A stretch of 64,000 nucleotides of DNA from Rhizobium sp. (lineage in GTDB: Bacteria > Pseudomonadota > Gammaproteobacteria > Burkholderiales > Thiobacillaceae): positions 1 to 64,000 of the forward strand of contig JAIBEL010000006.1 in assembly GCA_019459285.1 (NCBI GenBank), read 5' to 3'. The notes under the pieces were generated by a model that worked only from the letters and a program-made list of their open reading frames with translations, was not told where the DNA came from and did no database searches. Both the position numbers and the translations under genes were made by a program. Positions 15,508-58,631 of the stretch are shown here, in pieces; the first letter of the stretch is position 1; every line of letters starts with the position of its first letter.

Positions 15508-16128
15508 TCAGGCCAGCTTGCGCGTCCGCAGCACCTTGATCTGGAACAGCGTGTTGCGTTCATCCTCTTCCAGCGCGGCACGGATGTGCTGCACCGTGGC
15601 TTGGTAGCGCGGGATGATGTTGTATTTCAATGCGTTGACCCGCTTCTGCGTCTTGCGGCTGGCGGCGAGCAACCGCCACAGCGCGTTTTCCGCCTCACCC
15701 AGCCGCGCCAGCGTCACCGTCAGCTCTCTCAATCGCAAACGCGCTTCGTCGAAGCTGACGTCGGTCCACATCAGGCCCACCGGTTGCAAGGGCAACGGCT
15801 CGGCCGACACGCTGGGATATTCGACGCCGACGCTGGAACGCGCCACCACCTTGATCGCCACCGCCGGCTTGAGCCCGACCGACGCCTGGCGCAGCATCTG
15901 CTCACCCATGCGCATCTGCACGATGCCGAGCCAGCGGTAGGCCTCGGCAAGTTCGCGCTGGGTCTGCGCGCGCAGTTCGCGATATTGCGCCAGCCGTTCA
16001 TACACCAGCCGGGTCAGCAGGTCGCGTTTCTTTTCCAGCATCTGCCGGCCCTGCTCCAGAAAACGCGCCTGCCTGCCAACCTGCAGCAACGCGCTTTTCG
16101 TGGGCGGGACGGGGAGGCGTTTTTTCAT
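15508..16128 (-). CDS. ntpD: V/A-type ATPase subunit D (central stalk)
   Basis: The 206-residue long coiled-coil protein begins RLPVPPTKSALLQVGRQA, a typical subunit D start, followed by LEKKRDLLTRLVYE. Subunit D is the rotor shaft inside the A3B3 head. The length is normal. The gene follows subunit B with an array of 7-base repeats in the gap, and the glutaredoxin gene follows. On the plus strand the region is open in other frames but those are shadows. Confidence 0.9.
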   Translation of the reverse strand: MKKRLPVPPTKSALLQVGRQARFLEQGRQMLEKKRDLLTRLVYERLAQYRELRAQTQRELAEAYRWLGIVQMRMGEQMLRQASVGLKPAVAIKVVARSSVGVEYPSVSAEPLPLQPVGLMWTDVSFDEARLRLRELTVTLARLGEAENALWRLLAASRKTQKRVNALKYNIIPRYQATVQHIRAALEEDERNTLFQIKVLRTRKLA

Positions 16129-16130
16129 TG

Positions 16131-16219
16131 TGGGTAAGCGGTAAGCGGTGAGGAGTGAGCGGCAAGGACGGCAGTGAAACGGAGTTTCCCGCTCACCGCT
16201 TCCTGCTCACCGCTCACCC
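16131..16219. repeat. Inverted array of 7-base repeats between V-ATPase B and D
   Basis: The left arm (16131-16162) is made of units such as GGTAAGC, GGTAAGC, GGTGAGG and AGTGAGC. The right arm (16186-16219) holds the complement, GCTCACC, GCTTCCT, GCTCACC, GCTCACC. The arms can pair around a loop of about 23 bases. The same unit recurs near 19450, 21065 and 54870. Confidence 0.85.
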
Positions 16220-16225
16220 ATTCCA

Positions 16226-17608
16226 TCACGCTGCCCCCTTGTGATATTTCGCCAACTCTTCCTCCGACACCCGAATCAGCGATTCCGGCGGCAGCATGGA
16301 AAGCAGGTCCCAGGCGAGATTGAGCGTTTCATGGATGCTGCGGTCCTCGTCCTCGCCCTGGTTGATGAAGCGACGCTCGAAGGCGTCGGCGAACGCCAGG
16401 GTACGGCGGTCGGCGTCGCTCAGTTCCTCGGCGCCGATGATGGCGGCCAGCCCGCGCACTTCCAGTGCCTTGGCGTAGCTGGCGAACAGTTGGCTGGCGA
16501 CGTGGGGGTGATCCTCGCGGGTGAAGTTCTTGCCGATGCCGTCCTTCATCAATCGGGACAACGAAGGCAGCACGGTCACCGGCGGGTAGACGCCCTGGTT
16601 GGATAGCTCGCGCCCGAGCACGATCTGGCCTTCCGTGATGTAGCCGGTGAGGTCGGGAATCGGATGGGTAATGTCGTCCGACGGCATCGACAGCACCGGA
16701 ATCATGGTGATCGAGCCGCGCCGGTTCTTGATCCGCCCTGCCCGCTCGTAGAGCTCGGCGAGGTCGGAATAGAGATAGCCGGGGTAGCCTTTGCGCGCCG
16801 GCACGTCGCCGCGCAGCACCGCGACTTCGCGCAGCGCCTCGGCATAGGCGGTCATGTCGGTCATCACGACCAGCACGTGGTAGTCGAGATCGAACGCCAG
16901 GTATTCGGCCGCGGTGAGGGCGGCGCGCGGGGTCAGCAGGCGTTCGATCACCGGCTCGTCGGCGAGGTTGAGGAACATCACCACCTTGTTGAGCACCCCG
17001 CTTTCCTCGAAGCTTTCCTGGAAGAAGCGCGCATCGGCGTGCGAGGCGCCGAAAGCGGCGAATACGATCACGAATTCTGCGGATTCCTCGCCCAGCAGCT
17101 TCGCCTGGCGCACGATCTGCGCCGCCACCTGGTTGTGCGGCAGGCCGCCGCCGGAAAAGATCGGCAGTTTCTGCCCGCGCGTCAGCGAATTCATGCCGTC
17201 GATGGCGGAAATGCCGGTCTGGATGAATTCGCGCGGATACGCGCGTGCCGCCGGGTTGAGTGGCTCGCCGTTGATGTCGCGGCGATCGGCGGAAATGACG
17301 GGTGGGCGCCCGTCGCATGGCCGGCCTGAGCCGTTGAACACACGGCCGAGAATGTCGCGCGACACGGGCAACTTGTAGGGTTCCTCCAGAAAACGTACCC
17401 AGGTTCGCTCCAGATCAAGTGCATCGGTCCCCTCGAACACCTCCACCAGCACGGCATCATTGGCGCTGCGGATGACCAAGCCGGAACGCACTCGGCCGGC
17501 ATGGTCGCGCAGCTGCACGCGCGAGCCGGCCGCCACGCCGGGCACGCCGGCCATGACGACGAGCCCCCCTTGGGCGGAAGCGGCGGTGCGGAATTCGATG
17601 TTCTTCAT
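16226..17608 (-). CDS. ntpB: V/A-type ATPase subunit B (regulatory nucleotide-binding)
   Basis: This 460-residue B subunit shows the expected non-catalytic P-loop-like stretch GQKLPIFSGGGLPHNQVA and later VLSMPSDDITHPIPDLTGYITEGQI and LPSLSRLMKDGIGK. It forms the A3B3 head with subunit A. The start at 17608 gives [15 protein letters not shown], and the ATG overlaps the end of subunit A by 4 bases. An open frame extends without stop to 19240, but that part shadows subunit A in another frame and is not a fusion. Confidence 0.95.
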   Translation of the reverse strand: MKNIEFRTAASAQGGLVVMAGVPGVAAGSRVQLRDHAGRVRSGLVIRSANDAVLVEVFEGTDALDLERTWVRFLEEPYKLPVSRDILGRVFNGSGRPCDGRPPVISADRRDINGEPLNPAARAYPREFIQTGISAIDGMNSLTRGQKLPIFSGGGLPHNQVAAQIVRQAKLLGEESAEFVIVFAAFGASHADARFFQESFEESGVLNKVVMFLNLADEPVIERLLTPRAALTAAEYLAFDLDYHVLVVMTDMTAYAEALREVAVLRGDVPARKGYPGYLYSDLAELYERAGRIKNRRGSITMIPVLSMPSDDITHPIPDLTGYITEGQIVLGRELSNQGVYPPVTVLPSLSRLMKDGIGKNFTREDHPHVASQLFASYAKALEVRGLAAIIGAEELSDADRRTLAFADAFERRFINQGEDEDRSIHETLNLAWDLLSMLPPESLIRVSEEELAKYHKGAA

Positions 17609-19404
17609 GGCCGGATCTCTTCCATCGCCGAAGACGGGGCAGCGGGCGCATATTCCAGCAATAACGGCTCGAAAGCCGCCGGAATCGCAGCAATCTTCGC
17701 CTTCAATGCTTCGAGGTCGTCCGAGCTGTGCTGACTCTTCCAGCGTCGCGCCTGCGCCAGCAGCGGCATCTGGATCAGGCGCCGGGCCGGCGCGCCGAGC
17801 TTCACCAGTTTCATACCCTGGCGATAGATGTCGAGCAATGCCGTCAGCAGCGCGAACTGCTTCTCGGGCGAGGCAAAGCTGTCGACCTCGTCGGTGGCGG
17901 CCTGCTGCAGCAAGCCCTCCTTGATCAAACTGGCGGCTTCCAGCGTCCATCGCTGCTCGGAAGATAGCGCCTCGACCCCGACCAGGTTGACGATGCGCTG
18001 CAGCTCCTCGGATGCGGCGAGTAGATCCAGCGCGGCGGCACGCGCGGCTTCCCAACCCGGATCGATGTTGTCCGCCCACCACTTCGCAGCGGAACTCACG
18101 TAGCCCGAGAAGCTTTCCAGCCAGTCCACGGCCGGGTAATGGCGGGCATCGGCCAGTTCCTTCGACAGCGCCCAGAACGTCTGGATGATTTCCTTGGTAT
18201 GGCTGGTCACCGGCTCCGAGAAGTCGCCGCCCGGCGGCGACACCGCGCCGATCAGCGTGACCGATCCGTGGTCGCCGGCGAGGGTTTCCACGCGTCCGGC
18301 CCGCTCGTAAAAAGCCGCCAGGCGCGAGCCGAGATAGGCCGGGTAGCCCTCCTCCACCGGCATCTGGCCCAGCCGGCCGGCGACCTCGCGCAACGCCTCG
18401 GCCCAGCGGCTGGTGGAATCCGCCACCATCACCACGTCGTATCCCTGGTCGCGGAAATATTCCGCCAGCGTGATGCCGACATAGATCGAGGCCTCGCGCG
18501 CCACCACTGGCATGTTGGAGGTGTTGGCCACCAGCAGGGTGCGTTCCATCAGCGGGCGGCCGGTGTGCGGGTCCGTCAGCGTGGGCATGGATTCGAGCAC
18601 GTCGGTCAGTTCGTTGCCGCGTTCGCCGCAGCCGACATAGATGACGATCTGGGCGTTGCACCAGCGTGCGACCTGGTGTTGCAGCATGGTCTTGCCGGCA
18701 CCGAACGGGCCCGGGATCGCCGCCTTGCCGCCCTTCAGCAGCGGATAGAAGGTATCGAGGATGCGCTGGCCGGTGATCAGCGGCGCGACGGCATGATCGC
18801 GCTGTCTGAACGGGCGCGGCGTGCGTACCGGCCAGCGATGGAACAGGTGCAGTTTCTCGATGCGGCCATCGGCGAGTCTCACCCGGCCGATCACCTCCTC
18901 CACGGTGTGCTCGCCTTCCGGCGCCAGTTCCAGCAATTCGCCCTGGACCCGCGGCGGGACCAGGATGCGGTGCTGGATCGATTCGGTTTCCTGCACCGTG
19001 CCCAGCACCTCGCCGCCGGCCAGTGGCATGCCGGCACGGCGCCCGGGATCCGGCACAAAATACCAGCGCCGGTCGCGCGGCAGTGACGCCACCGCGACGC
19101 CACGGGCGATGCGATCGCCGCTCTGTTCCCACATCGCCTGCAAGGGGCGCTGCACACCGTCGAAAATGCCGCCCAGCAAGCCCGGCCCGAGTTCCACCGA
19201 CAGTGGCCAACCCAGGCCTTCCGCTTCCTCGCCCGGACACAACCCGGCGGTGTCCTCGTACAACTGTGCCAGCGCCGTATTGCCGTCGCGGCTGATGACT
19301 TCGCCTACCAGGCCCAGGCGTCCGACCCGCACCTGTTCGCCGAGTACCGTCTGCGGCAGGTCGAGTTTGACCAGGGGACCGTTGATTTCGAGGATTTTGC
19401 CCAT
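17605..19404 (-). CDS. ntpA: V/A-type ATPase subunit A (catalytic)
   Basis: This 599-residue catalytic subunit begins [22 protein letters not shown]. It carries the Walker A loop [17 protein letters not shown], the [13 protein letters not shown] stretch with the catalytic glutamate, and [17 protein letters not shown] (Walker B region). The length suits bacterial V/A-type A subunits. The start at 19404 is chosen over the longer frame to 19461, because the protein begins like its family there. It is preceded by a 7-base repeat array and coupled to subunit B by a 4-base overlap. Confidence 0.96.
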
Positions 19405-19415
19405 CGTTTTCCTTA

Positions 19416-19484
19416 AGGGGTAAGCAGTGAACGGTGAGCGGTAAAACCGCTCACTACTCACTGCTCACCGTTCACTACTCACCC
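19416..19484. repeat. Inverted array of 7-base repeats between V-ATPase E and A
   Basis: The left arm (about 19416-19444) contains GGTAAGC, AGTGAAC, GGTGAGC. The right arm (19447-19484) contains GCTCACT, ACTCACT, GCTCACC, GTTCACT, ACTCACC. The arms pair around a very short loop. The TGA stop of subunit E (19479-19481, minus) lies inside the right arm, so the repeat supplies the stop codon. Confidence 0.85.
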
Positions 19485-20129
19485 ATGAATCAGCGTGCCA
19501 AGGTCGGGCGCGCTGGCGAACAGGCGTTCCATCGTCACGCGAGCCAGTTCGTCGGCCAGGCGCGCATGGCGGGCTTCGACCGTCTGGTCGTATTGAGCGC
19601 GATTGTCAGCCAGCCGTACCCGGATGCCGCCTTCGCTGGGTTGTCCGTGCGTGGCGAGCGTGACGTTGCGCCCCGGCGCTGCACGCGCGCACATTTCATT
19701 CCACCGCGATGCCAGGCGCTTTTCGTCTTCAGGCCGGACTTCCGCCACCAGATCGCCCGGCGGCAGGTCTTGCGCCGCCGCTGCCAGCCAGGCTTCGAGC
19801 ACGTCCAGATAACGTGTTTCGTCCTGCACCAGATGCCGGAAAGCATTCTTGACCTCGGCCAGCGCGGACTCCGTGAGCGCCCAGCGCAGCCGGTCGAGTT
19901 CGGCTGCCAGCCGCGTTTCCGCCGCCTGGCCTTGCCGTCGCACCAGCCGCTCAGCCTCGACCTTGGCACCCAGCACTTCGTGCTCGCCGGCCAGTTTCAG
20001 CTTCTCAGCCGATTCGGCGAGCATGCGGGCGCGGGTCGATTCGGCATTCTGTAGAAGTTCGCGCGCCAGCGTCCCGGCCTGCTGCAGCAGCGCCTGCTCG
20101 AGTTGGGAGACCTGCACATCGGCTTCCAT
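19479..20129 (-). CDS. ntpE: V/A-type ATPase subunit E (peripheral stalk)
   Basis: This 216-residue protein has a long N-terminal coiled-coil (about 5-100, rich in Glu, Ala, Arg) and a globular C-terminal end with GGIRVRLADNRAQYDQTVEARHARL, the usual pattern of subunit E. It joins the head to the membrane part through the outer stalk. The start at 20129 is preceded by CTGGAGAAAAA. The stop codon is part of the adjacent 7-base repeat array, and a different array lies upstream of the gene. Confidence 0.88.
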   Translation of the reverse strand: MEADVQVSQLEQALLQQAGTLARELLQNAESTRARMLAESAEKLKLAGEHEVLGAKVEAERLVRRQGQAAETRLAAELDRLRWALTESALAEVKNAFRHLVQDETRYLDVLEAWLAAAAQDLPPGDLVAEVRPEDEKRLASRWNEMCARAAPGRNVTLATHGQPSEGGIRVRLADNRAQYDQTVEARHARLADELARVTMERLFASAPDLGTLIHG

Positions 20130-20157
20130 TTTTTCTCCAGATTCAATAACTTGACTA

Positions 20158-20229
20158 ACAAGTTTCAAGTTGAAAATTACAAGACTGGTTGCCGGTTTTT
20201 CCTTGTAACTTGTATCTTGCAACTTGCAT
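20158..20229. repeat. Inverted array of a second 7-base repeat family between V-ATPase F and E
   Basis: The left arm has ACAAGTT, TCAAGTT, GAAAATT, ACAAGAC (20158-20185). The right arm has CTTGTAA, CTTGTAT, CTTGCAA, CTTGCAT (20202-20229) in perfect 7-base register. The arms are roughly complementary. The layout is the same as the GGTGAGC arrays but the unit is different and AT-rich. The right arm ends exactly at the subunit F stop codon. Confidence 0.85.
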
Positions 20230-20574
20230 CTACTTCAGCGCATCTGGCCCGAGGACAGCCCGCACCACGTCGTCGACCGCCGGCGCGTAATCCTGGGGCG
20301 AGGGCAAGGGCGGCAGTTCGGTGATGACGATGCGCCCGCCTTCGTTGCGCAGGCGATTGAGCCAAGGGCCGCCGGCATGGGCCAGCGGCGTCTCCAGCAG
20401 CACCAATGCCGCCTCGCCGCTCCGCACCAGCTGTTCCAGCACCGTTTCCACGGTGGCGGGTTCGGCGTCGGCGTACACGTCGGCGCCGATCAGGCTGAAG
20501 CCGTCGGCGAGGCCGGCGCTGCCCAATACAATCAGACGCGCGCTATCGGACGGGCTGCCGGATCCAGACGGCAT
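20230..20574 (-). CDS. V/A-type ATPase subunit F (central stalk)
   Basis: This 114-residue protein fits subunit F: LIVLGSAGLADGFSLIGADVY in the first strand-loop, then LVLLETPLAHAGG and an IVITELPPLPS stretch near the middle. Subunit F binds the D shaft and can modulate turnover. It starts 4 bases after the stop of the proteolipid gene and ends in a TAG next to the CTTGYAN repeat array. It is small and divergent; the position between K and E supports the call. Confidence 0.8.
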   Translation of the reverse strand: MPSGSGSPSDSARLIVLGSAGLADGFSLIGADVYADAEPATVETVLEQLVRSGEAALVLLETPLAHAGGPWLNRLRNEGGRIVITELPPLPSPQDYAPAVDDVVRAVLGPDALK

Positions 20575-20578
20575 CGGC

Positions 20579-21016
20579 TCAGAGCTTGCCGAGCAGCAGG
20601 ATAGACATGACCAGGCCGTAAATCGCGATCCCTTCGGCCAACCCCATGTAAACCAGGGTGCGGCCGAACATTTCCGGCTTTTCGGCGATCACCGCCAACG
20701 ATGCTGAACCGATCGGCCCCAGTGCCATCGCCGCGGCGATGGCCGCCAGCCCGGTCGGCAGGCCGATACCGAGCAGGGCCAGCCCCTGCCCCAAGGTGAT
20801 CTCGCGCGCGGCCGTCGCAGCCGTTTCGGCCGCCATGACCTCCTGTAAGCCCATCAGCAGGACGCCGGCAATACCCAGGCCGAACAGCGCCAGATTGGCC
20901 AGCAGCCCGCCCTTTAGCCAGCCCGCGGATACACGGCGCGGCTTAAGCATCAGCCAGATCCCCACGCCCAGCGTGGCCGCCACCGGCACGCCCATCAATG
21001 CAATCAACCAGGTCAT
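20579..21016 (-). CDS. ntpK: V/A-type ATPase proteolipid subunit K
   Basis: This 145-residue membrane protein has about four hydrophobic helices. The ion-binding glutamate is E128 in YMGLAEGIAIYGLVMSI. Only the second helical hairpin carries the glutamate. By eye the segment 86-115 aligns without gaps to NtpK of Enterococcus hirae, but the position of its Na+-binding glutamine (Q110) is leucine here (L99). This suggests proton rather than sodium transport; the inference relies on a remembered sequence. A 7-base repeat array lies between this gene and subunit I. Confidence 0.92.
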   Translation of the reverse strand: MTWLIALMGVPVAATLGVGIWLMLKPRRVSAGWLKGGLLANLALFGLGIAGVLLMGLQEVMAAETAATAAREITLGQGLALLGIGLPTGLAAIAAAMALGPIGSASLAVIAEKPEMFGRTLVYMGLAEGIAIYGLVMSILLLGKL

Positions 21017-21032
21017 GTTTTCTCCTTACTAT

Positions 21033-21097
21033 GGTGAACGGTGAGCGGTAAGCAGTGAGGCGGTCTCCGCTCACTGCTTACTGCTCACTGCTCACGC
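21033..21097. repeat. Inverted array of 7-base repeats between V-ATPase I and K
   Basis: The left arm (21033-21065) contains GGTGAAC, GGTGAGC, GGTAAGC, AGTGAGG. The right arm (21066-21097) contains GCTCACT, GCTTACT, GCTCACT, GCTCACG. The TGA stop of subunit I (21092-21094, minus) is inside the right arm, as for subunit E. Confidence 0.85.
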
Positions 21098-22975
21098 CTT
21101 CTCGATTCGCAACGGCACGAACGCCCTTCCATCTCCACTGAAGAAACGCGAGAACCCCTCGTAATACATCAGGCGCAGTGCCTGGATCGCAACGATGCCG
21201 CCTTCCAGTACGATGATGACGATATTGCCCAATACAAGCGTGATCCCGTGGCCGACCATGCCTAGGCCGTGCGCCAGGGTGAAGACCGCCAGCGCCAGCG
21301 CCACATGGTTGAGGCTGAAGGCCGCCACGCGCATGAATGACAGCGTATTCGAAAACAGGTTGATCGCGGTTTCCAGCGTTTCGATGAACGTGACCAGCAT
21401 GCGCTCGCCCAGCCGCGCCCGGGTTTCATGCCACTTGAATGCCGCCACCCCGGCGATTCCCAGCCCGGCCAGTATCCAGGCTGTTTGCGCGACATCCGCC
21501 ACGCCGGCCAGGCTCGCCAGGACGCCGACGGCACCGAGATAGAACGCCAGTCCGGCGAGGCCGCTGGAATCGAACAAGGCCTCGCCGCCCCGTCCGGCTG
21601 CCCATTTGTTGCGTACGTTGACCAGCAGCGTGAACACGATGAAACCGACGCCGAACGTCACCGCTATCGTCAGCACGCGGATCGGATCGTGCAGCGGCGA
21701 CAGCCAGCGCGGCGAGACGATGTCCTCGTAGCCGAAGACACTGCCGTAGAAAAAACCGAACAGCATCGACACGGCGCCGGCGGCCACGCCTATCCAGGCC
21801 ATCTGGCCGAGGCGCCGCGCGAATGCCAGCGCCAGCAGCAGGATCGCCGCACCGTGGCCGATGTCGCCGAACATGGCGCCGAACAGCAGCAGGTAGGTGA
21901 CGGCGAACGGCAACGCCGGGTCGAATTCGCCATAACGCGGGACCCCATAGCTTTTCACCAGCGGCACAAAGGGTTTGAGCCAGCCCGGATAGCGCACCAG
22001 CGATGGCACCTCGGCCGCGTCGCCGGCCGCGAGTTCGCGCGGGTCGAGCCAGTAGCGGCCATGCAGGCGCGCGTCCAGGGTTTCACGCAATTCATCCAGT
22101 TGTCGGCGCGGGATCCAGCCCGACAAAGCAGCCAGCCCACCGCGGCCAAGTATGCCTGCCTGTGCGGCCTCGGCCAGTGGACGCGCCAGGGCCAGACGCA
22201 ACCGTGCTTCATGCAGGCGCGGACCGAATTGTTCGCGCAGGCCGTCCCGGACCTGGCAGACTGCACCGGTTTGCGTGTCCAGGCGGATGCGTTCGGCCTC
22301 CAGCCAGGCGCGTGCCGCCTGCGGATGGGTACGCAGTTCGTTCGGTACCGGCAGTTCGCGCCAGCCCGCCTGAGCCAGCAGGCCGCGCACTTCGTTCCGA
22401 CGGCTGCGCGGCCCGGCAATCACCGCGAACACCTGTTCGCCAGCCTGATCGAAACGCGACACCAGATACCCGGTCATGGACAAGGCTTCGGTCACCCGTT
22501 TGAGTTCCGCCGCCGGCAAGCTGCCGATGCTCGCCGACAGCAGACTGTCGGGACGCAGCAGGTATGCCAGGTTCACATTCAACCCTTCCAGCTTGGCCAG
22601 CGTGTCCTCCAGCGTCCCGAGGTGGCTGCGCGCATCCTCGATCCTCGCCTCATTCTCATGGCAATCGAGGCAGTCTTTCCACACGCCTTTCAGCCAGTGA
22701 TTCAGTTCCTGCAGATCGGCGAGCGAAGGTGCTTCGGCATCCGCCGGTGGGTTCAGGGGGCCGGTGTCGCCGCATTCCTCCTGCAGCTTGGACAAGCGGG
22801 CTTCCGCTTCGAGCCAGGCTTCGCGATACGCAGCCGCAGGCGATTCCGCAAGCGCAGTCTCCCTGCACGGTGCCGGATTGAACACGCCGAAGCGGGCCAG
22901 CGCCAGGGCGGCATCCTGCGTTTCGGACGCCAACACCAGCAATTGAATTCTGAGCAGGGGTTCGGCGCGCAGCAT
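21092..22975 (-). CDS. ntpI: V/A-type ATPase subunit I (membrane stator)
   Basis: This 627-residue protein has a soluble N-terminal half (to about residue 330) with a long helical region, and a C-terminal half with about seven to eight membrane segments including AVTYLLLFGAMFGDIGHGA, LFGFFYGSVFG and NTLSFMRVAAFSLNHVALA. These match subunit I/a, which forms the ion path with the K ring. The length is close to normal. It begins in a TGATG overlap with subunit C, and its stop is in a repeat array. Confidence 0.93.
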   Translation of the reverse strand: MLRAEPLLRIQLLVLASETQDAALALARFGVFNPAPCRETALAESPAAAYREAWLEAEARLSKLQEECGDTGPLNPPADAEAPSLADLQELNHWLKGVWKDCLDCHENEARIEDARSHLGTLEDTLAKLEGLNVNLAYLLRPDSLLSASIGSLPAAELKRVTEALSMTGYLVSRFDQAGEQVFAVIAGPRSRRNEVRGLLAQAGWRELPVPNELRTHPQAARAWLEAERIRLDTQTGAVCQVRDGLREQFGPRLHEARLRLALARPLAEAAQAGILGRGGLAALSGWIPRRQLDELRETLDARLHGRYWLDPRELAAGDAAEVPSLVRYPGWLKPFVPLVKSYGVPRYGEFDPALPFAVTYLLLFGAMFGDIGHGAAILLLALAFARRLGQMAWIGVAAGAVSMLFGFFYGSVFGYEDIVSPRWLSPLHDPIRVLTIAVTFGVGFIVFTLLVNVRNKWAAGRGGEALFDSSGLAGLAFYLGAVGVLASLAGVADVAQTAWILAGLGIAGVAAFKWHETRARLGERMLVTFIETLETAINLFSNTLSFMRVAAFSLNHVALALAVFTLAHGLGMVGHGITLVLGNIVIIVLEGGIVAIQALRLMYYEGFSRFFSGDGRAFVPLRIEKA

Positions 22976-31448: not shown

Positions 31449-31827
31449 ACTGGCTGTCGCCCAGGCGCTCGTCGAACAGGTGGATGCCGTGATGGGCCAA
31501 CATCAGGCGCGCCATGATCATGATGCATCGTCATCCGATGCATGGCGTGCCACAGCCATCCGCGTGCGCATCGGCCCGCTGGCCGGCGTGGTACCTGAAC
31601 TTCTCGCGACCGCATTTCCGCTCGCCGCGGCCGGCCGCCGCATGGAACACGCCGCACTCGAATTCACCCACGCGCCGATCCAGGTGCGCTGCCAGACCTG
31701 CGGCGCGGAAACCGAAGCCGCGATGAACCGCCTGCTCTGCGGCGCCTGCGGCGACTGGCATACTCAGGTTATTTCCGGCGACGATCTGCTGCTCGAAAGC
31801 GTCGAACTCGAAACCACACCGTCCTGA
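31441..31827 (+). CDS. hypA: Hydrogenase nickel-insertion protein
   Basis: This 128-residue HypA delivers nickel to the large subunit. It starts with GTG, giving MHELAVAQALV with the nickel-binding His at position 2, which fixes the start. The zinc site is CQTCGAE...CGACGD in the C-terminal half. An insert of His and Asp residues (HQARHDHDASS) near residue 22 is longer than in most HypA proteins and might bind metal. Overlap with hypC suggests coupled translation. Confidence 0.93.
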   Translation: MHELAVAQALVEQVDAVMGQHQARHDHDASSSDAWRATAIRVRIGPLAGVVPELLATAFPLAAAGRRMEHAALEFTHAPIQVRCQTCGAETEAAMNRLLCGACGDWHTQVISGDDLLLESVELETTPS

Positions 31828-31828
31828 C

Positions 31829-31852
31829 CACTCACTACTCCCCACTCACCTA
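31829..31852. repeat. Single arm of the 7-base repeat between hypA and hypB
   Basis: ACTCACT, ACTCCCC, ACTCACC in direct 7-base register match the right arms of the V-ATPase and narK2 arrays, but no opposite arm is seen. It directly follows the hypA stop. Confidence 0.6.
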
Positions 31853-51089: not shown

Positions 51090-51124
51090 AAAAAACGGGG
51101 GAGACCAAGTCTCCCCCGTTTTTT
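51090..51124. terminator. Bidirectional rho-independent terminator
   Basis: CGGGGGAGAC (51096-51105) pairs fully with GTCTCCCCCG (51109-51118) around a CAA loop. Six A precede and six T follow, so it can stop both the nos operon (plus) and the cytochrome c gene (minus). Confidence 0.93.
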
Positions 51125-53227: not shown

Positions 53228-54838
53228 ATGCCCACCAATATCAAGGAATGGAACCCGGAAGACGCCGCCTTCTGGGAAACGACCGGCAGGAAGATTGCCT
53301 ACCGCAACCTGTGGATCTCGGTTCCGGCCCTCCTGTGCGGATTCGCCGTGTGGCTGATGTGGGGCATCATCACCGTGCAGATGTCCAACCTGGGCTTCCC
53401 CTTCAGCCAGGACGAGCTGTTCACGCTGACCGCGATCTCGGGGCTGGCCGGCGCGACGATGCGCATCCCGTCCTCCTTCTTCATCCGGCTGGCCGGCGGG
53501 CGCAACGTCATCTTCCTCACCACGTCCATGTTGCTGGCCCCCGCGATCGGTACCGGCATCGTCCTGCAGCACCCCGAATGGCCGCTGTGGACCTTCCAGC
53601 TGATGGCGCTGTGGTCGGGCGTCGGCGGCGGCAACTTCGCCAGCTCGATGTCCAACATCAGCACCTTCTTTCCCAAGCGCCTGCAGGGCACGGCGCTCGG
53701 GATCAATGCGGGCCTGGGGAATTTCGGCGTCACCACCATGCAGATCCTCATCCCGCTGGTGATGACGGTCAGCGTGTTCGGCGCACTGGGCGGCGAGCCG
53801 ATGACGCTGGTCAAGGACAGCGGCTGGATCTTCGGCAAGATACTCGCCGGCACGCCGACCTACATCCAGAACGCCGGCCTCACCTGGGTGCTGTCGCTGG
53901 TGCCGCTCGGGATCATCGCCTGGTTCGGCATGAACAATCTGCTGCCGGTGTCGCCGGATGCGGGCAACGCCGTCTCCGCCTTCTTCAAGGTCACCTGGCT
54001 CTATACCCTGGTGTTCGTCCCCGCCATCGGCGGCCTCTACCTCTATCTGCCCACCCCCACCGGGCTGGGGATGCTCAACATGTGGGTGGCGATGCCGCTC
54101 ATCATCGTCGTCACGCTGGTGATCCTGAAGCTGGCCGCCTTCGGTCCGATGAAGGAGAACATCGCCAAGCAGTTCGCCATCTTCAACAACAAGCATACCT
54201 GGTCGATGACGGCGCTCTACCTGGTCACCTTCGGTTCGTTCATCGGCTTTTCGATGGCGCTGCCGCTGTCGATCGCCGTCATCTTCGGTAACAGCCATGT
54301 CCTGGATGCTGCGACCGGCGTCTGGACACATGTGAAAAATCCACACGCTCCCTCCGCCCTGCAGTATGCGTGGATCGGCCCCTTCGTCGGCGCGCTGATC
54401 CGCCCGGTCGGCGGCTGGATTGCCGACAAGGTCGGCGGCTCCATCGTCACCCAGATCATCTCGGCAGTGATGGTCGTTGCCTCGGTCTACGCCGGCTGGG
54501 TGCTGATGCAGGCCTATCAGTCGGCCACGCCCGAGGTCTACTTCACCCAGTTCCTGGTGGTGTTCGTGGTGCTGTTCGCCGCCACCGGCATGGGCAACGG
54601 CTCAACCTTCCGCACCGTCGGCGTGATCTTCGACCGCGTGCAGGCCGGGCCCGTTCTGGGTTGGACTTCCGCCGTTGCCGCCTATGGTTCATTCATCGCT
54701 CCCGAGGTGATCAAGAACCAGATCAAGGCCGGCACCCCGCAAAACGCCATGTACGGCTTCGCCATCTTCTACGCCGTGTGCCTGGTGTTGAACTGGTGGT
54801 TTTATCTGCGCAAGGGATCCGAAATTCGGAACCCGTAA
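53228..54838 (+). CDS. narK2: Nitrate/nitrite antiporter, NarK2 type
   Basis: This 536-residue transporter of the same family is longer than NarK1, with an N-terminal extension (TNIKEWNPEDAAFWETTGRK) typical of NarK2. It shows GATMRIPSSFFIRLAGGRN, GVGGGNFASSMSNISTFFP, GLGNFGVTTMQ and GGWIADKVGGS. NarK2 types are thought to exchange nitrate for nitrite. The TAA stop is provided by the start of the 7-base repeat array before narG. Confidence 0.94.
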   Translation: MPTNIKEWNPEDAAFWETTGRKIAYRNLWISVPALLCGFAVWLMWGIITVQMSNLGFPFSQDELFTLTAISGLAGATMRIPSSFFIRLAGGRNVIFLTTSMLLAPAIGTGIVLQHPEWPLWTFQLMALWSGVGGGNFASSMSNISTFFPKRLQGTALGINAGLGNFGVTTMQILIPLVMTVSVFGALGGEPMTLVKDSGWIFGKILAGTPTYIQNAGLTWVLSLVPLGIIAWFGMNNLLPVSPDAGNAVSAFFKVTWLYTLVFVPAIGGLYLYLPTPTGLGMLNMWVAMPLIIVVTLVILKLAAFGPMKENIAKQFAIFNNKHTWSMTALYLVTFGSFIGFSMALPLSIAVIFGNSHVLDAATGVWTHVKNPHAPSALQYAWIGPFVGALIRPVGGWIADKVGGSIVTQIISAVMVVASVYAGWVLMQAYQSATPEVYFTQFLVVFVVLFAATGMGNGSTFRTVGVIFDRVQAGPVLGWTSAVAAYGSFIAPEVIKNQIKAGTPQNAMYGFAIFYAVCLVLNWWFYLRKGSEIRNP

Positions 54839-54907
54839 GCGGTAAGCGGTGAGCAGCAAGCGGTGAAACCGCTCACCGCTCACCGCTCACTGCTAACCGC
54901 TCACCCA
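54835..54907. repeat. Inverted array of 7-base repeats between narK2 and narG
   Basis: The left arm reads GTAAGCG GTAAGCG GTGAGCA GCAAGCG GTGAAAC, and the right arm GCTCACC GCTCACC GCTCACT GCTAACC GCTCACC, ending at 54907. The narK2 stop TAA (54836-54838) is part of the first unit. A strong hairpin would form 23 bases before the narG start. Confidence 0.87.
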
Positions 54908-54929: not shown

Positions 54930-57900
54930 ATGAGTCACTTCCTCGACCGACTGACCTTCTTCAAGAAGAACATCGCCAGTTATTCCAACGGCCATGGCGT
55001 CGTCAGCAACGAAGACCGCAGCTGGGAAAATGCCTACCGCAGCCGCTGGCAGCACGACAAGGTGGTGCGTTCCACCCATGGGGTGAACTGCACCGGATCG
55101 TGCAGTTGGAAGATCTTCGTCAAGAACGGCCTCATCACCTGGGAAATCCAGCAGACCGACTATCCGCGCACCCGCCCCGACCTGCCCAATCACGAGCCGC
55201 GCGGCTGTCCGCGCGGTGCCAGCTACTCCTGGTATGTGTATTCGGCGCAGCGCGTGAAGTACCCGCTGATCCGCGGGCGCCTGATGGAAATGTGGCGCGA
55301 GGCGAGGAAGACGATGGACCCGGTGGCGGCCTGGAAATCGATCAGCCAGGATCCCGAGAAGGCCCGGCGCTACAAGTCGGTGCGCGGCCAGGGCGGGTTC
55401 GTGCGCGCCAAGTGGGACGAGGTGACGGAAATGATCGCCGCCTCCAACGTCTTCACCATCAAGGAATTCGGCCCCGACCGCATCTACGGCTTTTCGCCGA
55501 TTCCCGCCATGTCGATGGTGAGCTATGCGGCAGGCTCGCGCTACATGTCGTTGATCGGCGGCGTGTGCGGCTCGTTCTACGACTGGTACTGCGACCTGCC
55601 GCCGTCGAGCCCGCAGGTATGGGGCGAGCAGACCGACGTGCCGGAATCGGCCGACTGGTACAACTCGACCTATCTGATGGTGTGGGGCTCCAACGTGCCG
55701 CAGACGCGCACACCCGACGCCCACTTCTACACCGAGGTGCGCTACAAGGGCACCAAGACCGTGGCGGTATCAAGCGACTTCGGCGAGATGGTGAAGTTCG
55801 GCGACATCTGGCTGGCGCCGCGCCAGGGCACCGACGCCGCGCTCGCGCTGGCGATGGGCCACGTCATCCTCAGCGAATTCCACAACAAGAACAAGAGCCA
55901 ATATTTCGATACCTACTGCCGTCAGTACAACGACATGCCGATGCTGGTCATGCTGAAGGCGCACGAAGGCAAGCTGATCGCCGACCGCTACCTGCGCGCC
56001 TCCGATCTCACCGGCCACATGGGGCAGGACAACAATCCGGAGTGGAAGACCGTGGTGTACGACGAGAACACCGGCTACCTGGTCGCGCCCAACGGGTCGA
56101 TCGGTTTCCGTTGGGGCCAGTCCGGTGCGTGGAACCTGGAAATGCGCGACGGCTATTCCAATAAAGAGGTGAAGCCGCAGCTGAGCCTGCTGAGCAACCA
56201 CGACGAGATTGTCGAAGTCGCCATGCCCTATTTCGGCGGCGACGACCACAACGACCTGCTCGTCCGCAATATGCCGGTCAAGCGCATCAGCGTCGGCGGC
56301 AAAGACGTGTACGTGGCCACCGTCTATGACCTGACGCTGGCCAATTACGGCGTCGACCGTGGCCTCGGCGGGCCGAACGTGCCCAAGAGCTACGACGACG
56401 ATGTGCCCTACACCCCGGCCTGGGCCGAGAAACACTGCGGAGTGCCGCGTGCCGACATCATCACGGTGGCGCGCGAATTCGCCGACAACGCCGACAAGAC
56501 CCTCGGCAAGTCCATGGTCATACTCGGCGCGGCGCTCAACCACTGGTACCACAACGACATGATCTACCGCGGCATCATGAACCTCCTGATGATGTGCGGC
56601 TGCATCGGCCAGTCGGGCGGCGGCTGGGCGCATTACGTCGGCCAGGAAAAACTGCGGCCGCAAACCGGCTGGGCGCCGCTAGCCTTCGGCCTCGACTGGC
56701 ATCGCCCGCCGCGGCAGATGAATTCCACCTCCTTCTTCTACGCCCACACCAGCCAGTGGCGCCATGAGAAGCTGGCAGCGTCGGAGATCCTCTCGCCGAC
56801 CGCAAGCAAGACCTTGGGGGACTATCGCCTGATCGACTTCAACGTGCGTGCCGAGCGCATGGGCTGGCTGCCGTCCGCGCCGCAGCTGGAAACCAATCCG
56901 CTCGAAATCACCAAGGCGGCCGATGCCGCCGGCATCGACCCGGTCAAGTATGCGGTCGAGCAGATCAAGAGCGGTGCGCTCAAGTTCTCCTGCGAGGATC
57001 CGGACAACCCGAAGAACTTCCCACGAAATTTATTTGTGTGGCGCTCGAATCTTTTAGGGTCGTCGGGCAAGGGCCACGAGTACTTCCTCAAGTATCTGCT
57101 CGGCACGCAGAACGCGGTGCTGGGGCCGGACCTCGGCGAACTGGGCGAGGCCAAGCCGAAGGAGGTGGTGTGGCACGACAAGGGCGCCGAAGGCAAGCTG
57201 GACCTGCTGGTGACACTCGACTTCCGCATGTCGACCACCTGCCTGTATTCCGACATCGTGCTGCCGTCGGCCACCTGGTACGAGAAGGACGACCTCAATA
57301 CCTCGGACATGCACCCCTTCATCCACCCGCTGTCCGAAGCGGTGCAGCCGCTGTGGGAATCGAAGTCCGACTGGGACATCTACAAGACCATCGCGAAGAA
57401 GTTTTCCGAACTCGCAGCCACCCATCTGGGCACGCAGAAGGACCTGGTGCTGACGCCGCTGATGCACGACACGCCGTCCGAACTGGGGCAGAGCCTGGGC
57501 GTGCGCGACTGGAAGAAGGGAGAAGTCGATCCCATTCCCGGCAAGACCATGCCGACGATGACGGTGGTGACGCGTGACTACAGCGACACCTACAAGAAGT
57601 TCACCGCGCTGGGGCCCTTGATGACCAAGGTCGGCAATGGCGGCAAGGGCATCAGCTGGAATACCGAACTCGAAGTGCAGCAGCTGGCCGAACTGAACTA
57701 CACCGTCACCGAGGAAGGCATCAGCAAAGGGCTACCGAAGATCGAATCGGCCATCGATGCCTGCGAAGTGGTTTTGATGCTGGCGCCGGAAACCAATGGC
57801 CATGTGGCGGTGAAGGCATGGGAGGCGCTGTCGAAGATCACCGGCCGCGACCACACCCACCTCGCCATCGCGCGCGAGGACGACAAGATCCGCTTCCGCG

Positions 57901-58631
57901 ACATCCAGGTGCAGCCGCGCAAGATCATCTCCTCGCCGACCTGGTCGGGCCTGGAATCGGAACACGTGTCGTACAACGCCTGTTTCACCAACGTCCACGA
58001 GTTGATCCCCTGGCGCACCCTCACCGGCCGCCAGCAGTTCTACCAGGATCATCAGTGGATGCTGGATTTCGGCGAGGGCCTGTGCGTGTACAAGCCGCCG
58101 GTCGACACCAAGACGATTGCGCCGATGCTGGGCAAGAAGCCGAACGGCCACCACGAGCTGGTGCTCAACTGGATCACGCCGCACCAGAAATGGGGCATCC
58201 ACAGCACCTACACCGACAACCTGCGCATGCTGACTCTTTCCAGAGGCGGCCCCCACGTCTGGGTATCGGAAATCGAGGCGAAGCAGGCCGGGCTGGTCGA
58301 CAACGACTGGGTCGAGGTGTTCAACGTCAACGGCACGCTGACCGCGCGCGTCGTGGTCAGCCAGCGGGTGCCCAAGGGCATGTGCCTGATGTACCACGCG
58401 CAGGAAAAAATCATCAACGTGCCGGGTGCCGAGGTGAGCGGATTCCGCGGCGGCATCCACAACTCGGTGACGCGCACCATCACCAAGCCCACGCACATGA
58501 TCGGCGGCTACGCGCAGCTGGCCTACGGCTTCAACTACTACGGCACAGTGGGGTCCAACCGCGACGAGTACGTGATCGTACGCAAGATGAAGAAGGTGGA
58601 CTGGATGGAAGGCCCCCTGGTCGATCGCTGA
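54930..58631 (+). CDS. narG: Respiratory nitrate reductase alpha subunit
   Basis: This 1233-residue molybdenum subunit reduces nitrate to nitrite on the cytoplasmic side. The N-terminal cluster ligands are HGVNCTGSC, with a further cysteine in GCPRGASYSWY. The Asp-containing SADWYNSTYLMVWGSNVPQ, EVRYKGTKTVAVSSDF and C-terminal GGYAQLAYGFNYYGTVGSNRDEY are conserved. The length is normal. AAAGGAG precedes the ATG. Codons at 57025-57062 are unusually AT-rich (two TTA leucines, AAT, TTT) inside a conserved stretch, unlike the rest of the gene. Confidence 0.97.
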   Translation: MSHFLDRLTFFKKNIASYSNGHGVVSNEDRSWENAYRSRWQHDKVVRSTHGVNCTGSCSWKIFVKNGLITWEIQQTDYPRTRPDLPNHEPRGCPRGASYSWYVYSAQRVKYPLIRGRLMEMWREARKTMDPVAAWKSISQDPEKARRYKSVRGQGGFVRAKWDEVTEMIAASNVFTIKEFGPDRIYGFSPIPAMSMVSYAAGSRYMSLIGGVCGSFYDWYCDLPPSSPQVWGEQTDVPESADWYNSTYLMVWGSNVPQTRTPDAHFYTEVRYKGTKTVAVSSDFGEMVKFGDIWLAPRQGTDAALALAMGHVILSEFHNKNKSQYFDTYCRQYNDMPMLVMLKAHEGKLIADRYLRASDLTGHMGQDNNPEWKTVVYDENTGYLVAPNGSIGFRWGQSGAWNLEMRDGYSNKEVKPQLSLLSNHDEIVEVAMPYFGGDDHNDLLVRNMPVKRISVGGKDVYVATVYDLTLANYGVDRGLGGPNVPKSYDDDVPYTPAWAEKHCGVPRADIITVAREFADNADKTLGKSMVILGAALNHWYHNDMIYRGIMNLLMMCGCIGQSGGGWAHYVGQEKLRPQTGWAPLAFGLDWHRPPRQMNSTSFFYAHTSQWRHEKLAASEILSPTASKTLGDYRLIDFNVRAERMGWLPSAPQLETNPLEITKAADAAGIDPVKYAVEQIKSGALKFSCEDPDNPKNFPRNLFVWRSNLLGSSGKGHEYFLKYLLGTQNAVLGPDLGELGEAKPKEVVWHDKGAEGKLDLLVTLDFRMSTTCLYSDIVLPSATWYEKDDLNTSDMHPFIHPLSEAVQPLWESKSDWDIYKTIAKKFSELAATHLGTQKDLVLTPLMHDTPSELGQSLGVRDWKKGEVDPIPGKTMPTMTVVTRDYSDTYKKFTALGPLMTKVGNGGKGISWNTELEVQQLAELNYTVTEEGISKGLPKIESAIDACEVVLMLAPETNGHVAVKAWEALSKITGRDHTHLAIAREDDKIRFRDIQVQPRKIISSPTWSGLESEHVSYNACFTNVHELIPWRTLTGRQQFYQDHQWMLDFGEGLCVYKPPVDTKTIAPMLGKKPNGHHELVLNWITPHQKWGIHSTYTDNLRMLTLSRGGPHVWVSEIEAKQAGLVDNDWVEVFNVNGTLTARVVVSQRVPKGMCLMYHAQEKIINVPGAEVSGFRGGIHNSVTRTITKPTHMIGGYAQLAYGFNYYGTVGSNRDEYVIVRKMKKVDWMEGPLVDR

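Follow-up and report, generated by a model that had tools for sequence, protein, structure and literature searches.

Inverted arrays of heptamer repeats at gene edges in Thiobacillus and in the V-ATPase operons of related bacteria

Introduction

Heptameric repeats located between genes have been described in several groups of bacteria. The closest known system is formed by the GGGAATC and GGGGA(C/T)T repeats of Xanthomonas and Nostoc (Rehm et al., 2015, PMC4692102), tandem units of 7 base pairs (bp) that are dispersed, mostly between aligned open reading frames (ORFs) and in few cases between divergent ones. Convergent (inverted) pairs number 70 and 75 in two Xanthomonas genomes; the repeats overlap with stop codons and vary in length and sequence among close relatives (PMC4692102). 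The present analysis concerns a window of 64,000 nucleotides (nt), contig C8 of a Thiobacillus genome of 3.38 Mb in 74 contigs (hereafter the own genome), and in particular its V-ATPase operon, in which inverted arrays of 7-nt units (RGTRAGC facing GCTYACY) occupy gaps between subunit genes. An original prediction, made from the letters of the window alone, had drawn attention to three such arrays.

The Thiobacillus arrays are a variant of the already known intergenic heptamer repeats. With those of Xanthomonas and Nostoc they share tandem 7-bp units, placement, polarity and convergent inverted pairs. They differ in that the unit changes between species at one gap, and in that the main unit RGTRAGC has no G run longer than GG, although longer runs occur in some variants (GGGGAGC). 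The TAACTGA direct repeats of Beggiatoaceae are intergenic heptamers that abut start codons mostly devoid of a ribosome-binding site (RBS), lie over some stop codons, and are distributed patchily among lineages (MacGregor, 2015, PMC4679880). The arrays described here are likewise heptamers between genes, at RBS-less starts and overlapping some stops. However, their units are RGTRAGC or CAAGNNN and often inverted, whereas the Beggiatoaceae have one fixed unit in direct orientation, with one indirect repeat reported in that genome (PMC4679880).

The Xanthomonas and Nostoc heptamers were discussed as G-quadruplexes (PMC4692102) and those of Beggiatoaceae as binding sites of a regulator (PMC4679880). 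As RGTRAGC lacks a GGG tract, the quadruplex idea is not transferable and does not describe a common feature; moreover, several unrelated heptamers that occupy the same gaps agree in pairing and polarity, and hence neither explanation is general. Heptanucleotide simple sequence repeats are over-represented in prokaryotes, which was attributed to a 7-nt contact of the polymerase (Mrazek et al., 2007, as described in PMC4679880 and PMC4692102). The arrays share this excess of period 7 but are imperfect, inverted and polar, unlike the long simple repeats considered generally in that work. Finally, repetitive extragenic palindromic (REP) sequences and the bacterial interspersed mosaic elements (BIME) built from them possess a short hairpin of fixed form that is tagged with GTAG or CGTC, and those tagged with GTAG are tied to transposase genes (PMC3733652). 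The Thiobacillus arrays resemble these as dispersed intergenic palindromes in head-to-head order that are able to supply stop codons; they differ by the absence of a tag and of a match to the Y1 transposase in the own genome. A search of titles and abstract openings, with most subscription journals outside its scope, yielded no published account of these units in Thiobacillus or of unit replacement at a fixed gap.

Heptamer arrays in the V-ATPase operon

The V-ATPase operon occupies the minus strand, and Pfam matches give its gene order as C/AC39-like, I, K, F, E, A, B, D. Subunit A displays 99% identity to its counterpart in Thiobacillus denitrificans UBA2410 (locus L066). The array in the B-D gap spans 16131-16220, with arms at 16131-16165 and 16186-16220; its low-coordinate edge is located 2-4 nt from the start codon of D, and the stop codon of B (16226-16228) lies just beyond it. 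The E-A array (19418-19484) contains the TGA stop of subunit E at 19479-19481, and the I-K array (21034-21095) contains the TGA stop of subunit I at 21092-21094, so both stops lie within the repeat as originally predicted. The arms of all three arrays measure 25-35 nt and display their best autocorrelation at lag 7 (lags 4-11 tested).

Chance occurrence was surveyed in 244 kb, comprising the window and 9 stretches of 20 kb picked blind to content. Eight inverted repeats exceeded the threshold; four of them have period 7, and all four are found in the window (the B-D, E-A and I-K arrays and one at 54835-54904). A single order-1 Markov control of these 244 kb yielded no inverted repeats of any kind. 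The three arrays of the original prediction are thus confirmed as period-7 inverted arrays, but its count was incomplete: a CAAGNNN array in the F-E gap, the array at 54835-54904 and a weak stretch at 31827-31850 had been overlooked.

Period and turnover of the units

Gaps were compared in 41 V-ATPase loci, namely the window and loci L066-L105, with 229 gaps in total, 90 of them 40-300 nt long. Of 146 relatives 80 were kept, and the best 40 of these form the gap-test set; several are metagenome bins, in which repeats are possibly misassembled. Sister relationships of loci were read from a tree of subunits A and B. Gap autocorrelation at lags 4-12, assessed against shuffles (p<=0.01), displays period 7 in 43 of the 90 gaps, with at most 3 at other lags; a rerun with fresh shuffles gave 45 of 90, and at most 4 at other lags. 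The own-genome set contains 5 noncoding lag-7 segments and the set L066-L105 contains 28; another 10 are found in L106-L145, whose heptamer units are AT-rich (AGTTTTG, TGAATTA). The remaining lags between 4 and 13 reach at most 2, and lag 14 follows from lag 7. The preference for period 7 is therefore strong. A strict period of 7, on the other hand, is ruled out by the GTGACAA arrays of L095 and L104, which have period 8 or mix 7 and 8. A noncoding octamer run is also present at L127 5215-5294, with ten GTTCAGGA units.

Different heptamers occupy the same gap in different loci. In the B-D gap, RGTRAGC, CAAGNNN, GGGGGAA, GAGTGGC, GGTAGTC and GGGAAAC are all found, and the sisters L085 and L086 carry GGTAGTC and GGGAAAC, respectively. 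These two loci share 93-99% identity over most of B and the start of D, but only 58% in the last window of B. This drop at the end of B points to short-tract recombination as one route of unit replacement, which does not always require a new insertion. Between L071 and its sister L075, a gap of 106 nt with CAAG units corresponds to an overlap of 4 nt, and the E-A gap measures 74 nt in the window as compared to 5 nt in its sister L066. Of the traits of a miniature inverted-repeat transposable element (MITE), namely terminal inverted repeats, a conserved body and a target-site duplication, a conserved body was not seen among 81 inverted arrays collected as described below; the empty sites, on which a duplication would have to be judged, differ among relatives. 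The gaps of the V-ATPase operon, empty in some sister loci and filled differently in others, form a natural series in which birth, replacement and loss of arrays are datable.

Other insertions are found in the same operons. The loci L079, L080, L070 and L093 carry non-heptameric long palindromes in their B-D, E-A, I-K and F-E gaps, for instance of the GTAGGNTGG... and CGTCATTCCCG... types, as if the V-ATPase slots accepted any palindrome. By eye, L071 and L102 display an extra ORF-like stretch between A and B, beside CCCTCTCCCC-type repeats, and L070 and L083 contain a different A-B insert that resembles a small toxin-antitoxin-like gene pair.

Polarity and placement at gene edges

Polarity was assessed in a set of 81 inverted arrays that were found without a unit pattern. 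Period 7 was required, which places octamer arrays outside this count, and many of the underlying loci had been fetched for their RGTRAGC or CTTGYAW matches. The left arm is richer in G in 78 of the 81 arrays, spanning nine unit classes, and equal in 3, while the reverse does not occur. Purine content is higher on the left in 77, equal in 2 and higher on the right in 2, both of the latter being AT-rich gammaproteobacterial arrays. Clusters of RGTRAGC (82) are '+-' in 31 cases, single in 51 and never '-+'; among the matches listed, CAAG clusters are '+-' in 18 cases, single in 20 and likewise never '-+'. Among 120 heptamer segments in co-directional gaps, those with the G-strand in sense lie closer to the upstream stop (49 of 50), and those with the G-strand in antisense closer to the downstream start (57 of 70). 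The G-richer strand thus runs 5' to 3' away from the flanking gene. A demand for stop codons as general cause of this polarity was considered and rejected: CAAGNNN units are equally polar, and their G-strand is mostly stopless.

Every frame of the RGTRAGC strand offers a TGA or TAA, and an array that enters the end of an ORF therefore becomes its new stop. Of 65 stop-side arrays, 34 contain the stop codon. The own genome contributes 9 of 12 to this count, the V-ATPase loci 5 of 20, and further genomes of the genus 20 of 33, their loci having been selected for RGTRAGC. In L069, L088, L090 and L102, the final codons of subunit I fall within repeat units. Hence, the repeat can rewrite protein C-termini, as with this subunit in four relatives.

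The original prediction had offered, as one of two possibilities, a spreading repeat that targets gene ends. Dispersal, sharing of units between gaps and sites at ORF edges agree with this; restriction to gene ends does not, as arrays adjoin start codons as well as stop codons. Tolerance accounts for the location at gene edges as well as targeting does. Co-directional gaps hold 74 of the 81 arrays, but a single operon accounts for 28 of these. With the V-ATPase relatives set aside, 46 of 53 arrays are in co-directional gaps, 6 are not and 1 could not be assigned, as compared to a background of 59 among 77 gaps of 40-300 nt; we make no strong claim of enrichment. Genes outside the V-ATPase loci were called by a codon-usage script.

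Dispersal in genome, genus and order

A search of the own genome for two RGTRAGC units in register (GTRANCNGTRANC), a check proposed with the original prediction, returns 77 matches as compared to 7 for the reversed pattern; the surroundings of 71 of the 77 were fetched. Two-armed clusters number 12 in this genome, whereas about 0.2 are expected under independent arrival. As the two arms share a gap far above chance, the pair appears to be made together and to drift thereafter. The three-unit RGTRAGC pattern is present in 23 of 56 genomes of the genus, with no control match in any of them, and at the level of the order in 25 of 300 genomes and 17 of 134 genera, with control matches in 9 genomes. 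The arrays are hence not confined to the window, and they lie at ORF edges elsewhere too.

The predominant unit depends on the genome. Genomes G009 and G013 contain 88 and 70 CAAG triples, respectively (reversed control 13 and 0), and no RGTRAGC triples, while G007 contains 41 RGTRAGC and 5 CAAG triples; the reversed CAAG control also gives 6, 20 and 3 matches in G014, G102 and G145. Likeness of units between gaps is 0.43 within a genome (30 pairs) and 0.25 between genomes (601 pairs), with p=4e-5 for pairs that are not independent.

Two observations made alongside concern further arrays. In G000, contigs begin or end within an array (C7:2-21 and C60:4030-4078), and the repeats may break assemblies. 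Inverted arrays of the further heptamer classes TAGGNNN and TCAGGNN occur at L036 2059-2171, L049 177-289, L166 1358-1464 and L172 539-611; the TAGGNNN arrays resemble plant telomere repeats.

Possible origin of the arrays

Based on this dataset, we lean towards the view that the arrays are short repeats, in nearly all cases heptamers, that are dispersed and largely selfish, spread within genomes as inverted pairs and are tolerated only at gene edges. Its observed basis is the dispersal with genome-specific units, the strong preference for period 7, the pairing of arms, the polarity and the supply of stop codons. New copies may originate from existing arrays, through template switching or fold-back in the course of replication or repair, in which case both arms would be made together. 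Slippage and point mutation would later alter each arm independently, and arrays or entire gaps may also be swapped between species by short-tract recombination. Survival would be limited to places where an array is nearly harmless, namely gaps within operons, with the purine-rich strand oriented away from start codons; translation signals may act as the filter.

Several points weigh against this view. The data reveal neither an insertion event nor a duplicated target nor an enzyme that copies the arrays. The B-D gaps of L095 and L104 contain inverted octamer or mixed 7+8 arrays, GTGACAAA and TTTGTCAC, in the usual polarity. The difference in the E-A gap between the window and L066 could reflect gain or loss of an array, and may be a loss in L066. 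Gap-free alignments of the B-D gap between species exist for L071/L072/L076/L077, for the window and L066, for L069/L102 and for L067/L092, and fast turnover is therefore not universal. The G-strand of CAAGNNN is mostly devoid of stops or of strong likeness to a Shine-Dalgarno sequence, and a tolerance filter alone may be insufficient to explain the polarity. Two points on the hairpins treated below belong here as well: the shared fold of the window and L066, fitted to both, keeps every pair, and the comparison of arm partners has little power, as the units of a single genome hardly differ.

A different possibility is a copying process that is not bound to a fixed sequence, strongly prefers a step of 7 nt, keeps one strand polarity and would write inverted arrays at gene edges. 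Consistent with it are at least six heptamers (and an octamer in two loci) at the B-D gap, and a polarity that is constant in nine classes, in beta- and gammaproteobacteria. It was held to be a minor possibility until the octamer arrays of L095 and L104 were found, and we now regard it as rather improbable. If true, the 7-nt step would stem from the machinery of replication or repair and not from the repeat.

Alternative explanations

The original prediction had also proposed that the repeats set RNA stability between subunits. In this explanation, selected mRNA hairpins would determine the stability of operon segments, or the stoichiometry between them. The arrays lie inside operons, and the four RGTRAGC arrays of the window fold strongly as RNA (z of -5.96, -7.77, -8.75 and -9.49), but the CAAG array at 20159-20231 is a poor folder (z of -1.55). 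Selection at the level of the transcript would be expected to favour the sense RNA and to tolerate G-U pairs on the sense strand. However, of 74 co-directional arrays, 35 have the more stable RNA on the sense strand and 39 on the antisense strand (p=0.15), and sense-strand mismatches comprise 64 G-U as compared to 100 A-C (p=0.006), opposite to this expectation. Complementarity of an arm to its own partner (mean 15.1) is not higher than to arms of other arrays in the group (16.0; p=0.78, 31 arrays). Among 10 comparisons of orthologous arrays, two-sided pair changes amount to 0 or 1 each, about the level of coincidence. No stem pair is broken in 4 of the 10 (window-L066, L069-L102, L067-L092 and, for the E-A gap, L085-L086), in each case with a consensus fold selected to fit the two sequences compared. 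A selected role in RNA stability is thus not supported; the hairpin is real but probably a by-product, and the arrays may affect RNA incidentally. We consider selected mRNA hairpins unlikely. Translation coupling, in which the array would combine the upstream stop with the region before the next start, and a ribosome that terminates there would unfold the hairpin and be passed on to this start, appears unlikely too. In its favour, the 34 of 65 stop-side arrays mentioned above hold the stop, and a Shine-Dalgarno-like motif precedes none of 36 genes that start 0-9 nt from an antisense array, as compared to 996 of 1673 genes overall in the fetched loci, which is reminiscent of the TAACTGA repeats that precede RBS-less starts (PMC4679880). 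The value of 0 of 36 is partly built in, because the array itself occupies that site. Sister loci without an array at the same gap have overlaps of 4 nt or gaps of 5 nt, and partner arms are not co-conserved.

Mobilisation of REP-like palindromes by a REP-associated tyrosine transposase (RAYT, a Y1 enzyme of the IS200 type) would fit intergenic inverted doublets, and GTAG REP ends likewise supply stop codons (PMC3733652). A Y1 match is present in 40 of 56 genus genomes, including 13 of the 23 that are positive for RGTRAGC arrays; the other 10, which include the own genome and G007, a genome in one contig, display no Y1_Tnp match. Moreover, tandem heptamers of many sequences with variable loops and no constant hairpin or tag do not resemble such elements, and we regard this origin as very improbable. 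Intrinsic transcription terminators, suggested by stable hairpins at gene ends, have next to no probability in our estimate: the arrays lie within operons, upstream of further subunits, and no T run follows the array at 54835-54904. The original prediction had already held that the arrays are not standard terminators, and this stands, with 4 terminator-like matches in 15900-21300 as compared to 3.7 expected, none of them at a V-ATPase array. Copying by a reverse transcriptase in the manner of telomerase was also considered and rejected; PF00078 is absent from 9 of 11 genomes tested and present in G000 and G001.

Further features of the window

The second heptamer of the V-ATPase operon, CAAGNNN facing NNNCTTG, forms the inverted array of the F-E gap at 20159-20231 (lag-7 p=0.003); this class also predominates in some other Thiobacillus genomes. 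Outside the operon, the inverted RGTRAGC array at 54835-54904 is located between a gene for an MFS-like transporter (53228-54838, slightly below the Pfam cut-off) and the gene for nitrate reductase alpha (54930-58631). It occupies most of the gap, and its first unit is the source of the TAA stop of the transporter gene. A weak, one-sided stretch of ACCACTC heptamers lies at 31827-31850, a little before an ATG. Known RNA families have no match in the window at the gathering threshold. At 51090-51124, a perfect 16-bp inverted repeat with A/T ends resembles a bidirectional terminator.

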